Positions 42,953-51,098 of a DNA stretch of 64,000 nt are shown here, piece by piece. Made by a program: the position numbers and the translations under genes. Below the pieces are notes generated by a model, which had not been told where the DNA came from, ran no database searches, and was given only the letters and a program-made list of their open reading frames with translations. The number at the start of each line of letters is the position of its first letter. The stretch's first letter is position 1. Source of the stretch: Corynebacterium tuberculostearicum (lineage in GTDB: Bacteria > Actinomycetota > Actinomycetes > Mycobacteriales > Mycobacteriaceae); contig NZ_CP069791.1 in assembly GCF_016894265.1 (NCBI RefSeq), positions 682,001 through 746,000 on the forward strand, written 5' to 3'.

Positions 42953-44326
42953 TTAGCTCAGCGGGCTCATGGACTGGTAGAGCTGCTCTACCTTGTCGCG
43001 TGGGGTCTTGGGGTGTTCGTAGGCGACGTCGCTGAAGTCTTCAGGGTCGTCCTTGGAGCCGGTGATGATGTCTATATCGGAGGGCTCGACTTCGCCGGAG
43101 CGCAGCGCGGCCATCTCGGCGTGGTAGCGCACAACAACAGCGATGGTTGCGGCCACGGGGACGGCGAGGAAGGCGCCGACGATGCCGGCCAGGGTAGAGC
43201 CGACGGTGACGGAGAGCAGGACAACGGCCGCGTGCAGGCCCATGGCCTTGGACTGCAGCATCGGCTGGAGGACATTGCCTTCCACCTGCTGGACGATGAT
43301 GATAAGTGCGAGCGCCAGCAGCGCGTTGGTCAGGCCATTGGAGACCAGCGCGATGATGACGGCGAGGGCGCCAGCGGTGACCGCACCGATGATCGGGATG
43401 AAGCTGGCGAAGAACGTCACCACAGCGATGACGAGCGCAAGCGGAACTTGCAGAACCCACAGGCCAAGGCCAATGAGGATAGCGTCCACCATGGCCACGG
43501 CGGCCTGCGCTTGAATGAAGCCCGACAAGGTCTTCCAGATGCGCGCGCCGAGCTCGGTAACGTGCCAGCCGGTGGAGTTGCCGGTGTACTTGCGCAGCCA
43601 CGGCAGGAATTTGTCGCCGTCTTTAATGATGAAGAAGGTGACAAAGAGCATGATCAGCGCGGCCACGACGATGGAGCTGGCCATCGAGAAACCAGAGATA
43701 ACGCCGGTGGCGATAGTGGAGGCTTGGCCCTTGGCAAACTTGACCACGTCCTGGAGCACGGACTGTAGCTGGTCACTTTGGATATCGATGGGGGACTTTT
43801 CCACCATCTCCGTCAGCTGGTTGATGCCGTCTTCAGCCTGATTAATGAGCGTTTGGCTCTGACTAGTGACTACTGGCGCCATGGCGGCAAAGACGCCGCA
43901 GAAGACAATGATGAGGCCGAGCAGCGTGCTCACCGCCGCGAGCGAGCGCGGAAATCCCTTACTGCGCAGCCACGCGCTGATGGGGTAGAGCACCGTGGAA
44001 ACGAGGATGGCGAGCAAGACCGGCAGCAGGCCTACCCAAATGAACTTGAGCAGGTAGCCGGCCAGCGCTAGGCCGGCGACGATAAGGATAAAGACCACCG
44101 AGACCTTGGCCATGGTGCGGAAGTCCTTGGCCAGGACGGCGGATTTATCGTCGCGCTCGGCAGGGTGCTCGCTGGCAGCCTCTGCACCAAGGTGCGCGTC
44201 ATCATAAGCGACGAGGGTATGCGAATCTTCCTCGCCCGGCTTTTGGATTTGTGTTGCGTTACCTTTTTCCTGCGCAGACGGGCGCTTGGCCTCGTCGCGG
44301 GAAGACGAATTATGTGACGTAGACAT
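42953..44326 (-). CDS. AI-2E family (PerM-type) transporter
   Basis: A 457-residue membrane protein of the AI-2E exporter/PerM superfamily: a polar N-terminal region of about 90 residues, then about eight helices with a central soluble segment. Family features include IKDGDKFLPWLRKY, the FIPIIGAVTAGALAVIIALV region and QQVEGNVLQPMLQSKAMGLH. The C-terminal tail is acidic. The substrate is unknown; despite the family name, autoinducer transport should not be assumed. Confidence 0.88.
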   Translation of the reverse strand: MSTSHNSSSRDEAKRPSAQEKGNATQIQKPGEEDSHTLVAYDDAHLGAEAASEHPAERDDKSAVLAKDFRTMAKVSVVFILIVAGLALAGYLLKFIWVGLLPVLLAILVSTVLYPISAWLRSKGFPRSLAAVSTLLGLIIVFCGVFAAMAPVVTSQSQTLINQAEDGINQLTEMVEKSPIDIQSDQLQSVLQDVVKFAKGQASTIATGVISGFSMASSIVVAALIMLFVTFFIIKDGDKFLPWLRKYTGNSTGWHVTELGARIWKTLSGFIQAQAAVAMVDAILIGLGLWVLQVPLALVIAVVTFFASFIPIIGAVTAGALAVIIALVSNGLTNALLALALIIIVQQVEGNVLQPMLQSKAMGLHAAVVLLSVTVGSTLAGIVGAFLAVPVAATIAVVVRYHAEMAALRSGEVEPSDIDIITGSKDDPEDFSDVAYEHPKTPRDKVEQLYQSMSPLS

Positions 44327-48241: not shown

Positions 48242-48375
48242 TGACGTGCGGCAACCCTGCAGGTTCAGGTTCCAATTGTTGCCTGGGGAATACTATGAAC
48301 TTTTGTGTTGCCGCAATTATAGGAAAGCGGTAAACGTGATGCTAGTCTCCTTTCGAAAACGGTAAGCGGGGGTAG

Positions 48376-48409
48376 AAAAACAAAAAATAAACCCCAGCAT
48401 GTGGGGTTT
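48376..48409 (-). terminator. intrinsic terminator after the response regulator gene
   Basis: On the minus strand AAACCCCA pairs with TGGGGTTT (48389-48396 and 48402-48409) and is followed by ATTTTTTGTTTTT, an excellent U-tract. Confidence 0.9.
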
Positions 48410-48427
48410 AGAGGGGGTATTGACTCA

Positions 48428-48450
48428 TCCGGGGGTAGTCTACCCCCGGA
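48428..48450. repeat. GC-rich inverted repeat just after the response regulator gene
   Basis: TCCGGGGGTA (48428-48437) and TACCCCCGGA (48441-48450) are perfect inverted arms with a 3-nt centre. It lies between the gene stop and the terminator and may form a tandem terminator or 3' stabilising stem. Confidence 0.7.
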
Positions 48451-48468
48451 TTGTCCAACAATCGGGGT

Positions 48469-49155
48469 CTAAGAGCCGTAGCCGGCCTTGAGCGCCTTCA
48501 CTGCTAGCTCGAGGCGGGACTTGGCGTGGAATTCACTGAGCAGGGTGGACACATACTTCTTCACCGTGCCCGGTGCATAATGCGTGCTCTTGGCAATCTC
48601 TTCGTTGGACTTTCCTTGGCAGACCAAGTCCAGGACCTGCTCTAGCGCAGGGGAGATGTGGTGATTGTCCTTGATCTTCGCGGTTGCGGCTGCCGCATTG
48701 GCGCCTGCTCCCTCAGCGTTCCAATTAGGAAGCTGCTCAAACAAGCGGGTAAGCGACTGCGGGGTGACAACCGTGCCGCCGCGCACGGCCTCGCGCACGG
48801 TATCCAAAATGTAGACCGGCTTGGAGCTTTTCAAAATATAGGCCGCAGCTTTATTGGACATGACCTCTTTGAGGGTCTCGTCATTGTCCATCGCGGTCAT
48901 TGCAACAAAGACCGGCGGGTCTTCCAGCTTGTTGACCTCACGCAAGAGGGTAGTGCCATCCATCTCGGGCATATGGATGTCCGCGACAATGACGTCAAAG
49001 TCCTGCTCTTGCAAAAGCTCGAGGGCGACCTTGCCATTTTCTGCGGTGGCGCGCACCTTCATGTCCTCAGCCGAGGCGAAGTAGCGCCCCAAGGCTTCAA
49101 GGACAAGTGGGTCGTCATCGACGACCAAGAGGGATGTTTTTACTTCACGCACCAT
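48469..49155 (-). CDS. NarL/FixJ-family response regulator
   Basis: A 228-residue two-domain regulator. The receiver domain has acidic pocket VVDDDP, phospho-acceptor Asp59 in VIVADIHMPEMDG, Thr in VAMTAMDND and Lys in AAYILKSSKP. A linker precedes a LuxR-type HTH (VCQGKSNEEIAKSTHYAPGT) at the C-terminus. The start is taken at the ATG 49155 (MVREVKTSLL), which lies inside the 3' end of the 50-residue peptide gene, implying translational coupling; a TTG at 49167 is the alternative. The cognate kinase is upstream at 49383-50573. Candidate targets are the repeats at 51043-51098. Confidence 0.93.
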   Translation of the reverse strand: MVREVKTSLLVVDDDPLVLEALGRYFASAEDMKVRATAENGKVALELLQEQDFDVIVADIHMPEMDGTTLLREVNKLEDPPVFVAMTAMDNDETLKEVMSNKAAAYILKSSKPVYILDTVREAVRGGTVVTPQSLTRLFEQLPNWNAEGAGANAAAATAKIKDNHHISPALEQVLDLVCQGKSNEEIAKSTHYAPGTVKKYVSTLLSEFHAKSRLELAVKALKAGYGS

Positions 49156-49292
49156 GGGGAGGGGCAACCGAAAGCGAGCTCGACTGCAGACTTGTATTCG
49201 GTGGTGGCTGGGAGATCGCCCGGGGTAAGGCCACCCAAGAGGGAGGAGGACAGTATGAGTGGAGTGAGAAGACTTGCGAGTGCGGCCTGCAT
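49140..49292 (-). CDS. 50-residue putative exported peptide with a Cys-loop C-terminus
   Basis: A small gene between kinase and regulator genes. AAGGAG with 7-nt spacing precedes the ATG at 49292; the frame ends with TAA at 49140-49142, overlapping the regulator start. The product has a hydrophobic N-terminal half (ALASLLTPLILSSSLLGG) like a signal peptide, a possible cleavage after LPA near residue 29, and a C-terminal segment ending FGCPSPWCVK, where two cysteines enclose PSPW and could form a six-residue disulfide ring. No positively charged residue precedes the hydrophobic core, which weakens the signal-peptide reading. A peptide ligand for the adjacent kinase is an inference from context. 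Confidence 0.55.
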   Translation of the reverse strand: MQAALASLLTPLILSSSLLGGLTPGDLPATTEYKSAVELAFGCPSPWCVK

Positions 49293-49382
49293 TAAGGCGC
49301 TCCTTTTGTGAAAGTTTGAATAGGCAGAAACAAACGAAAGCTTAGTGTATGAATTAAGCCTTTGCTATACATCGTGGTGGAA

Positions 49383-50573
49383 CTAACGCCGCTTATGGGC
49401 ACTGGGCGGCAGAGATAAGATCAATTCCCATTTCCCTGATTCCAACTCTGTGTCTAATCGTGCGTCAATCGTGGCTGCAATCCGGTTCATGGAGGACATG
49501 CCTATACCCGAGGACATTTCAATGTTCTTGCTTGTTGGTTTAGCTACGGGGTTAGTGATGGTAATGACCGTCCAGCCCATATGGGGTTGAACGGAAATTA
49601 CAATCTCTGCCCCCGGTGGAGAATACTTCACCGCGTTTAGGCAGGCTTCTGTGGTGATGGCTGCAATGGAATCGAGAATGGCTTGCGGGAATTCCGGTGC
49701 AAACTCTTCCCCTGTGACCTCAACAACGGGTGATCGATTGAGGCGGGAAAGGCGTTCTTCTTCTTCCGAAATGAGCTGGGCAAAGCTCGTTGGCTTTGTG
49801 GTTGTACCAAAACTCATGCCGTCGTTAATCCCATCGATATTATTTCGCAGGACCTTGGTTAGTGCCCGTACTTCCGACATGGAAGAACGCATGGAATCGC
49901 TGAGCTCATCGAGTTTCTTCGCTAGCTCTGGCTGTTTGGAATATTCGAGGCTCAGGGCCTCTAGCTGCATGGTATTTACCGTGAGGTTAGAAACAACCGA
50001 ATTGTGCAAGGTTTCTGCGAGGTCGGATTGGCGGCGCTTCACGTCGTCGTTCCATTCCACCATTGCATTTTTGTAGCGTCGAGCGGAGTGTGCGAGAGTA
50101 GCGCCAATCACTGCGCCGACTCCGATAAACATGGCCCAAGTAAAGGCCGAGGCGGGGTTAAAAACTAAACTACCGGCCTCTGGATCGAATTGGCCTACGA
50201 TCCACAGGATCAAACCAACACCGAGAGTTTGAGCATGTCTTTCGTGAAAAGCCACCACTGCCAGGAAGACAGGGGTAAGGAAGACGCAGGTTAGGTAAGG
50301 CGCTTCTGCCGTTATGGTTGCCCCGAGCCATACCAATACGAAAAGTGCCGCCATAGCGAGCGGCAGTCGAAAGGCGAAAACGGTGATTGTACTCAGAGCA
50401 AGACCGACGACCGCGGCAATCAACTGATACTCAGTGGGCGTGAAGAATGCGCCAAGTAATGTCAGCGCCACGCAGATCACCGCAGTTAAAGCGGCTGTTC
50501 GCTGCAGGGTCATGGCCGCGCGGATGCGTTGGTGAAGGGGCGGCTGTGAAGGTTTCGACACGGTGCGGTCCAC
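49383..50573 (-). CDS. polytopic sensor histidine kinase (HisKA_3 type)
   Basis: A 396-residue kinase. Five to six helices fill residues about 26-165 with almost no extracytoplasmic domain, so it likely senses a ligand in or at the membrane. The dimerisation/phospho-acceptor segment is RRQSDLAETLHNSVVSNLTV with His190, and the ATPase domain has N-box ITTEACLNAVKYSPPG and G-box SSGIGMSSMNRIAA. It belongs to the NarL-partner (HPK7) class and would phosphorylate the regulator encoded just downstream. Start is GTG at 50573 with AGGA close by; a second GTG four codons in is possible. Confidence 0.92.
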   Translation of the reverse strand: MDRTVSKPSQPPLHQRIRAAMTLQRTAALTAVICVALTLLGAFFTPTEYQLIAAVVGLALSTITVFAFRLPLAMAALFVLVWLGATITAEAPYLTCVFLTPVFLAVVAFHERHAQTLGVGLILWIVGQFDPEAGSLVFNPASAFTWAMFIGVGAVIGATLAHSARRYKNAMVEWNDDVKRRQSDLAETLHNSVVSNLTVNTMQLEALSLEYSKQPELAKKLDELSDSMRSSMSEVRALTKVLRNNIDGINDGMSFGTTTKPTSFAQLISEEEERLSRLNRSPVVEVTGEEFAPEFPQAILDSIAAITTEACLNAVKYSPPGAEIVISVQPHMGWTVITITNPVAKPTSKNIEMSSGIGMSSMNRIAATIDARLDTELESGKWELILSLPPSAHKRR

Positions 50574-50649
50574 GCTTCCTGGATGCTAAGGCTCAATGGG
50601 TTTTATCTCCCTAGTGTAAGTACAGCGAACGTGAAACAGCGATTGAAAA

Positions 50650-50723
50650 CAGCGAAACCCCCGCACCTTCGTGCGCGGTTCCTTGTGGTGGGTTCCGAGC
50701 GGAGGAAGAAGGTGAGGGGGTTT
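50650..50723 (-). terminator. intrinsic terminator of the 58-residue protein gene
   Basis: AAACCCCCGCACCTTC (50655-50670) pairs with 50708-50723 with a single mismatch in 16 bp, and the loop itself contains a smaller stem. On the minus strand it is followed by GCTGTTTTC. It separates the small gene from the kinase gene. Confidence 0.8.
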
Positions 50724-50756
50724 AGCTGGTCTTCATGAAGGAGTACAGAAAGCTAA

Positions 50757-50933
50757 TTACTTAGCTTCTGCAGCAGCCTCTGCGTCATCCTTGGAGGACA
50801 GGCCCTCGAATACGGAGGACAGGCCCTCGGAGTCGGTGTTGGACTCGGAGGAAGCGTCGATGAGGCCCTTGATGCCCTTAACGAGTGCTTCCCAGTCGAT
50901 GGCGGAGCTGAGGTCTGCGAGGGTATCGAACAT
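50757..50933 (-). CDS. 58-residue acidic protein, PorH/PorA-like candidate
   Basis: A short protein, MFDTLADLSSAIDWEALVKG... ending AEAAAEAK, with no signal peptide, no cysteine, many Asp/Glu/Ser and an amphipathic helix at about residues 8-28. Size, acidity and lack of a signal peptide resemble the corynebacterial outer-membrane channel peptides PorH and PorA (45-57 residues), but there is no sequence match I can rely on. The ATG at 50933 is chosen because AAAGGA lies 6 nt before it; the ATG two codons upstream abuts the box. A clear promoter and three direct repeats precede it and a strong terminator follows, so it is an independent, regulated gene. Confidence 0.7.
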   Translation of the reverse strand: MFDTLADLSSAIDWEALVKGIKGLIDASSESNTDSEGLSSVFEGLSSKDDAEAAAEAK

Positions 50934-51009
50934 ATACATTCCTTTCGGATCGGCGGAGTAAAACTACAATCTCTCTCTGGGGTAGCAGCTCTTAACTGCT
51001 GTGATTCCT

Positions 51010-51038
51010 AGTATGCGGTAGCGGGGGCGGACTGCCAA
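51010..51038 (-). promoter_or_regulatory. promoter of the 58-residue protein gene
   Basis: On the minus strand TTGGCA (51033-51038) and CATACT (51010-51015) are separated by 17 bp, a good sigma-A-type spacing. Transcription would start near 51003, giving an about 70-nt leader. Confidence 0.55.
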
Positions 51039-51042
51039 TCCT

Positions 51043-51098
51043 CTTTTGGATCCTTTCTGAGGTGACTTTTGGATCCTCTTAGGGTTATTTAAGGATCC
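51043..51098 (-). promoter_or_regulatory. three phased GGATCC-centred direct repeats (candidate activator sites)
   Basis: CTTTTGGATCCT occurs at 51043-51054 and 51066-51077, and a third partial copy AAGGATCC is at 51091-51098. The GGATCC cores start at 51048, 51071 and 51093, so the spacing is 23 and 22 bp, about two helical turns. They lie directly upstream of the -35 of the 58-residue protein gene. The regulator encoded at 48469-49155 is the obvious candidate binder, by proximity only. Confidence 0.6.

Follow-up and report, generated by a model that had tools for sequence, protein, structure and literature searches.

A pherotype-like kinase-peptide-regulator module in Corynebacterium, a candidate peptide-sensing two-component system

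In the ComQXPA system of Bacillus, a polytopic HisKA_3 kinase and a NarL/LuxR-type regulator are encoded beside a small gene whose peptide product carries a Trp near its C terminus, and the sensor part of the kinase and the peptide are polymorphic while the 3′ part of the kinase gene and the regulator are more conserved. The staphylococcal Agr system (AgrBDCA) combines a six-helix receptor kinase of the HPK10 type with a LytTR regulator and a short Cys-containing signal, and forms co-varying specificity groups. In the streptococcal ComCDE and Blp systems, peptide, kinase, and regulator share one operon and occur as pherotypes; their peptides have double-glycine leaders and a dedicated ABC exporter, and their regulators are of the LytTR type. 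MgrB, a membrane peptide of ~50 residues with two outer cysteines, is encoded outside any kinase-peptide-regulator operon and acts on PhoQ as a membrane-held inhibitor-type peptide, not as a pheromone. Here, we analyzed a 64,000-nt stretch of the Corynebacterium tuberculostearicum genome (a single contig of 2,433,864 bases, NZ_CP069791.1, positions 682,001 to 746,000; hereafter, the window) in which genes for a kinase, a 50-residue peptide, and a response regulator lie together. We consider it probable (roughly 65%) that the three constitute one pherotype-like peptide-sensing two-component system, with a secreted operon as its likely output in trans.

The ComQXPA traits listed above recur in this module, which differs from that system in its gene order (kinase-peptide-regulator), in its actinobacterial host, and in a peptide that bears a Sec-like leader and two invariant cysteines. 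It shares with Agr the six-helix kinase, the short Cys-containing peptide, and the co-varying groups, and with ComCDE and Blp the common operon and the pherotype-like pattern, whereas its HisKA_3 kinase and NarL-type regulator set it apart from Agr, and neither double-glycine leaders, a dedicated ABC exporter, nor LytTR regulators were seen in it. With MgrB it has in common the size of a membrane peptide, the two cysteines, and a kinase as the putative partner. The neighbors of the module are putA, a gene for a 58-residue acidic protein, and dnaK; no AgrB-type peptidase was recognized among them, nor was a linked ComQ isoprenyl transferase, for which no frame exists within the module (the rest of the genome was not searched). 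By analogy, we would class the module as a peptide-pheromone-like two-component system, its kinase and regulator being closest in type to ComP-ComA, although the peptide differs and no processing gene was recognized in linkage; of the features of that class, it has gene linkage (63 of 87 kinase loci) and co-varying sensor-peptide groups, and the leader pattern would predict export. Other two-component systems of the genus include HrrSA and CgtSR8, and the accessible main text of a 2012 review of the corynebacterial systems contains neither "peptide" nor "quorum" (PMC3353115). A review of quorum sensing in Actinobacteria, in the part available, lists Corynebacterium on bioinformatic evidence only, namely LuxR-type and receiver domains (PMC4748050). 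No corynebacterial peptide-sensing two-component system was found in literature covered by title and abstract start (most subscription journals and bioRxiv fall outside this coverage). Given its recurrence across the genus and the joint variation of sensor and peptide, the module is a strong candidate for a chemical language new to the searched literature. The agr-inhibiting activity of Corynebacterium striatum was considered as a role for the peptide; that activity withstands proteinase K, is small enough for a 3 kDa filter, and apparently targets the autoinducing peptide itself (PMC4988121).

The original prediction described four genes on one strand as a self-contained set, and all four reading frames were confirmed, boundaries included, on the minus strand, in the order (coding direction) 58-residue protein gene, kinase, peptide gene, regulator. 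The elements at the center of the analysis are the following.

49383..50573, minus strand: sensor histidine kinase of the HisKA_3 type, 396 amino acids (aa), GTG start, six membrane helices at about residues 13-164.
50088..50513, minus strand: hypervariable membrane (sensor) domain of the kinase (residues 21-162), with a core at 50470-50100 that shares 57-63% nucleotide identity with that of five near relatives.
49293..49382, minus strand: kinase-peptide gap with a Shine-Dalgarno sequence and a putative TACACT-like -10 element.
49140..49292, minus strand: exported-looking peptide gene, 50 aa, C terminus FGCPSPWCVK; the second hypervariable island.
48469..49155, minus strand: NarL/LuxR-type response regulator, 228 aa, with 16 nt of overlap between its start and the peptide gene.

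The assignments of kinase and regulator made in that prediction held. The regulator has receiver (PF00072, 84.9 bits) and GerE/LuxR (PF00196, 35.8 bits) domains above cut-off, with D59 as the receiver aspartate by hand count. The kinase has a HisKA_3 domain (PF07730, 31.3 bits; cut-off, 24), with H190 in the H-box and the N-box at residue 313, and a HATPase_c match that stays below cut-off (21.3 against 26.4 bits). An AlphaFold2 model of modest quality (predicted local distance difference test, 71; predicted template modeling score, 0.39) shows six membrane helices and short outer loops, the third holding a short strand pair. The cytoplasmic part of this model matched DesK (E ~2e-6) and other kinase cores in Foldseek; the kinase sequence found nothing in the PDB beyond chance matches of troponin or helicase type and a single designed protein. 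The peptide gene starts 90 nt behind the kinase end, with the Shine-Dalgarno sequence AAAGGAG seven bases before its ATG, and conservation of the gap suggests that it contains a promoter. The overlap of the peptide gene with the regulator start, also part of the prediction, may couple translation of the two.

The module recurs across the genus. A search with the kinase gave matches in 86 of 151 Corynebacterium genomes at E ≤ 1e-3, and the loci set comprised the 30 loci of this search and 60 further stretches from other match places. Among 87 kinase loci, a fixed rule (a hydrophobic run, a Cys, then WC near the stop) recognized an exported-looking peptide on the strand of the kinase in 63 and on the opposite strand in none. 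Under a looser rule, 68 of 90 loci were retrieved, including five from named genomes, with one spurious pick (L087) and one wrongly picked frame beside the real one (L072); six of the 22 loci that it scored as lacking a peptide do hold a candidate, ending in WC in L007, L036, and L051 and in the variants FYC, WYC, and LC in L053, L071, and L094, respectively. C termini read across loci include FGCPSPWCVK, FSCRKNPTLPWCS, LSCTYYPMRPWCPNASRYA, RCSTSPQRWWCG, and FECGGMLGRLWC. Both Cys residues are invariant in an alignment of 30 peptides, with Trp in at least 90%; among 70 modules whose kinases are <90% identical, 67 have the Trp just before the second Cys, and 52 have a Cys spacing of 8 residues (4 in the window lineage). 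In the 242 genus genomes, a profile built from the 30 peptides had matches at E ≤ 1e-5 in 91 (a hand count of the listing, with loci read in part), and a hand list adds 19 genomes, G096 included, with a weaker profile match or a peptide read at the locus, of which G040 and G033 have variant ends. Because near relatives keep the peptide frame with frame-preserving length changes and because it recurs beside the kinase genus-wide, this frame is beyond chance. The kinase-peptide-regulator triplet, 84 examples of which fall into 34 kinase lineages (50% identity), is well supported as a real genus-wide module.

Outside the genus, the best profile match in 199 genomes from other genera of the order was 1.8e-4, and each of the 10 other-genus matches either contained a stop or ended short of the C terminus of the model. 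A search with a single kinase returned, outside the genus, what look like general HisKA_3 kinases, and the fixed rule found no peptide at any of 11 out-of-genus HisKA_3 kinase loci. A module beyond Corynebacterium was rejected, and the peptide family looks confined to the genus at the search sensitivity used. Neither Pfam nor NCBIfam gave a known family above cut-off for the window peptide and seven relatives. Firmicutes have autoinducing bacteriocins, and a small, exported-looking, Cys-containing, hypervariable peptide could likewise be antimicrobial or self-inhibitory, with the two-component system sensing it for self-induction or tolerance; we regard this as very unlikely, as no linked exporter or immunity gene was recognized in the loci listed and none of the peptides reached a cut-off in either family database.

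Comparison with near relatives revealed two islands of divergence, the sensor and the peptide. Against locus L002, from the nearest relative, nucleotide identity is 63% in the sensor core, 92% in the catalytic part, 97% in the gap, 75% in the peptide gene, and 95% in the regulator gene, with flanks at 99% (5′ part of dnaK), 96% (58-aa gene), and 96% (3′ flank); at the protein level, the sensor is 61%, the catalytic part 96%, and the regulator 99% identical. Against L003 to L006, the sensor core (57-63%) and the peptide gene (72-76%) are similarly divergent and the regulator (88-96%) and 3′ flank (82-96%) conserved, with values for L003, L004, L005, and L006 of 88, 79, 72, and 77% in the catalytic part and 94, 78, 60, and 63% in the gap. 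The 92-97% identical DNA that separates the two islands in the L002 comparison argues for linked selection on sensor and peptide and against one chance tract. Synonymous divergence (dS) from L002 follows the blocks (sensor, 1.29; catalytic part, 0.34; regulator, 0.20), which suggests that recombination introduced old alleles, more than that amino acids changed rapidly in place. The window-L002 ratio of nonsynonymous to synonymous divergence in the sensor domain is ~0.23, and we make no claim of positive selection there. By locus, the named near relatives are C. tuberculostearicum, C. kefirresidentii, and C. yonathiae; by protein, they are C. accolens and C. rhinophilum.

Peptide and sensor also vary together. 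By reading, peptide groups coincide with sensor groups across 19 loci of the species complex, and a partial Mantel test of peptide against sensor distances, given the catalytic domain and regulator, yielded r = 0.56 (p = 0.0002), the partial for the regulator being -0.33. The genus-wide set consisted of 84 of 85 triplets (the spurious L089 was dropped, L063 was corrected by hand, and the L156 peptide was entered by hand), thinned to 77, 60, and 47 modules and shuffled 2000 times (p floor, 0.0005). Peptide-sensor partials were 0.31, 0.34, and 0.35, respectively (p = 0.0005 each), and those for the regulator were 0.08 (p = 0.018), 0.085 (p = 0.048), and 0.09 (p = 0.073). At kinase position 100, which lies in helix four of the model, Thr accompanies CPSPWC in five loci and Ala accompanies CPAPWC in 12 (17 of 17), and Val accompanies CPSPFC in two. 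Two genomes both filed as C. tuberculostearicum, G005 and G004, belong to different groups (C and A). The genus-wide recurrence, the conserved Cys...Trp-Cys C terminus and gene order, and this co-variation give good support to the peptide-linked two-component module that had been predicted, in which signaling is what we infer. The Cys pair might instead be a redox or envelope-stress probe, the peptide disulfide reporting oxidation to the kinase; invariance of both cysteines would suit such a role, but it leaves the paired hypervariability and the conserved Trp unexplained, and we give it hardly any credence. As separate observations, a peptide cluster (P0004) with the loop CPGPWC may represent a further specificity group, and kinase and peptide each occur at two places in some genomes, such as G045, where the peptides of the two kinase-peptide places (L041 and L054) differ, GCKSGHPHPWCK versus SCTYYPTRPWCPNPFG.

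In the reading we favor, the peptide precursor would be exported through its Sec-like leader to leave a short C-terminal piece outside, in which the two Cys probably form a disulfide loop with the Trp just before the second. The processed peptide would bind as ligand to the six membrane helices of the adjacent kinase, and the liganded kinase would act on the NarL-type regulator. Sensor domain and peptide would diversify jointly into specificity groups (pherotypes) exchanged between close species, while the regulator and, partly, the catalytic domain stay constant. The likely output in trans would be a three-gene operon of secreted proteins with an aerolysin-like predicted fold (genome positions 2400291-2402746). 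Export (from the leader pattern only), cleavage, disulfide formation, binding, diffusible signaling, regulation, the direction of the effect, and the output are inferred steps of this scheme. Because a hydrophobic run followed by an AxA site occurs in 50 of 70 non-redundant modules, leader cleavage is likely for most of them.

The candidate output belongs to a family that, in L208, L170, and L156, has no Pfam or NCBIfam match above cut-off and often occurs in tandem sets. At least 16 of the 81 genomes holding the family have it within 5 kb of the module, this linkage spans 8 of the 34 kinase lineages, and the peptide is also present in 71 of the 81 genomes. In a subclade (G069, G101, G034, and G098), the peptide lies ~3 kb from the kinase, and at the two subclade loci read at length (L156 and L164), three secreted genes stand between the regulator and a separate peptide gene. 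We see the secreted family as a better output candidate than the 58-aa gene. The fullest form of the proposal, a new Sec-exported Cys-Trp-loop pheromone family across Corynebacterium, with pherotypes in sister skin and nasal species and control of secreted aerolysin-fold proteins, is tentative, and we would put it at below even odds. Corynebacteria rank among the main inhabitants of human skin and nose; with peptide, receptor, and regulator defined, their cell-cell talk becomes addressable by peptide addition, and the pherotype pattern would predict cross-talk or cross-inhibition among sister species on the same skin. If true, commensals would have quorum-type control of a surface or antagonism factor, with the linked secreted family as the first candidate output.

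Several observations weigh against the favored reading. The leader of the window lineage has neither a basic residue nor an AxA site, so that its cleavage is uncertain, and the neighborhood of the module showed no dedicated peptidase, exporter, or modifying enzyme. The clean two-island pattern holds against L002 and largely L003, whereas against L004 to L006 the catalytic part also falls to 72-79% and, against L005 and L006, the gap is likewise divergent (60-63%); moreover, dS is saturated in several other pairs. Catalytic-domain partials were also significant within the species complex (0.38, p = 0.0002) and in the two larger genus-wide sets (0.14, p = 0.0005, for 77 modules; 0.07, p = 0.046, for 60), dropping to 0.03 (p = 0.28) for 47. 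Partial Mantel tests ignore phylogeny, and the co-variation is a lead rather than proof; the residue-100 match, too, rests on few independent events. On the output side, the operon in the window's genome (L208, 5292-7747) is unlinked to the module, 10 genomes have the secreted family and no detected peptide, and no promoter motif common to the peptide gene and the operon, or to these and the 58-aa gene, was seen by eye. Some of these points would suit a peptide held in the membrane as an accessory subunit or inhibitor of the kinase, in the manner of MgrB with PhoQ, rather than a diffusible signal: co-evolution inside one membrane complex would produce peptide-sensor co-variation as well, peptide and regulator genes overlap, the window lineage has the leader just described, and 20 of 70 modules show, in stop-to-stop frames, no hydrophobic run followed by AxA. 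We nevertheless find such a subunit unlikely, since that pattern is present in the other 50 modules, since the separate peptide genes of L156 and L164 stand apart from the kinase beyond secreted genes, and since a private subunit offers no obvious reason for replacement of sensor and peptide alleles between species with a 95-99% identical dnaK flank.

The fourth gene of the predicted set fared differently from the triplet. It and its surroundings comprise the following elements.

50650..50728, minus strand: inverted repeat, likely terminator, between the 58-aa gene and the kinase.
50757..50933, minus strand: 58-aa acidic protein gene, a lineage-restricted neighbor, not core.
51010..51077, minus strand: promoter-like pair and tandem element TCCAAAAG...TCCAAAAG, upstream of the 58-aa gene.

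The gene occurs in 21 of 242 genus genomes, all of one lineage and each time beside that lineage's module, ~0.2-0.3 kb from the kinase where measured and ~2.8 kb in G104. A fourth core member was rejected, as 221 of the 242 genomes, including most of those with the peptide, have no match; three genes form the set, which the inverted repeat before the kinase separates from the 58-aa gene, and conservation in related genomes extends to the triplet and the peptide C terminus, whereas the four-gene order is restricted to one lineage. The separate promoter, upstream repeats, and terminators ascribed to the gene were recovered in weaker form: one promoter-like pair (TTGGCA-17-CATACT, 51038-51010), where shuffled sequences gave a mean of 1.8 and pairs are thus no commoner than in shuffles, an exact 12-nt direct repeat with a spacing of 23 nt, and the inverted repeat. 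An earlier in-frame ATG at 50939 lies too close behind AAAGGA. The 58-aa gene is a real, conserved frame, 94-97% identical at the nucleotide level to that of five relatives and not hypervariable; judging by its size and composition, we would guess that it encodes a small envelope protein. Its tie to the regulator is one of position alone. A dedicated target of the regulator would account for its place beside the module in 21 of 21 genomes and for the conserved tandem element upstream, but the absence of the gene from most genomes with the peptide, together with a tandem element that has no second exact match in the genome and was not seen by eye in the peptide promoter, makes this role improbable.

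Other features of the secreted family and the locus were noted in passing. In the window's genome, G000:C1 3000-15000 (L207) and 2395000-2407000 (L208) form a large duplication (98.5-99.9% identity) that includes an inverted piece and broken secreted-gene copies, either an assembly artifact or a real duplication. Genome G109 has a secreted-family gene (81% identity) and no module match in the kinase and peptide-profile searches, possibly reflecting module loss, and a record named Staphylococcus chromogenes (P0199) that holds a family member is probably a contaminated or mislabeled assembly. No structured RNA at 44-54 kb of the window reached Rfam gathering scores. On the kinase side, the module is flanked by a divergent gene named dnaK from its sequence; on the other, a terminator-like hairpin (48410-48388) follows the regulator, and then putA. 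An AI-2E transporter family protein (42953-44326; PF01594, E 9e-62), for which no relation to the peptide was seen, is encoded 3′ of putA on the same strand. The regulator-putA intergenic region (48350-48470) contains several TACCCCC elements, including the palindrome TCCGGGGGTAGACTACCCCCGGA, which presumably resemble RamA-type sites.

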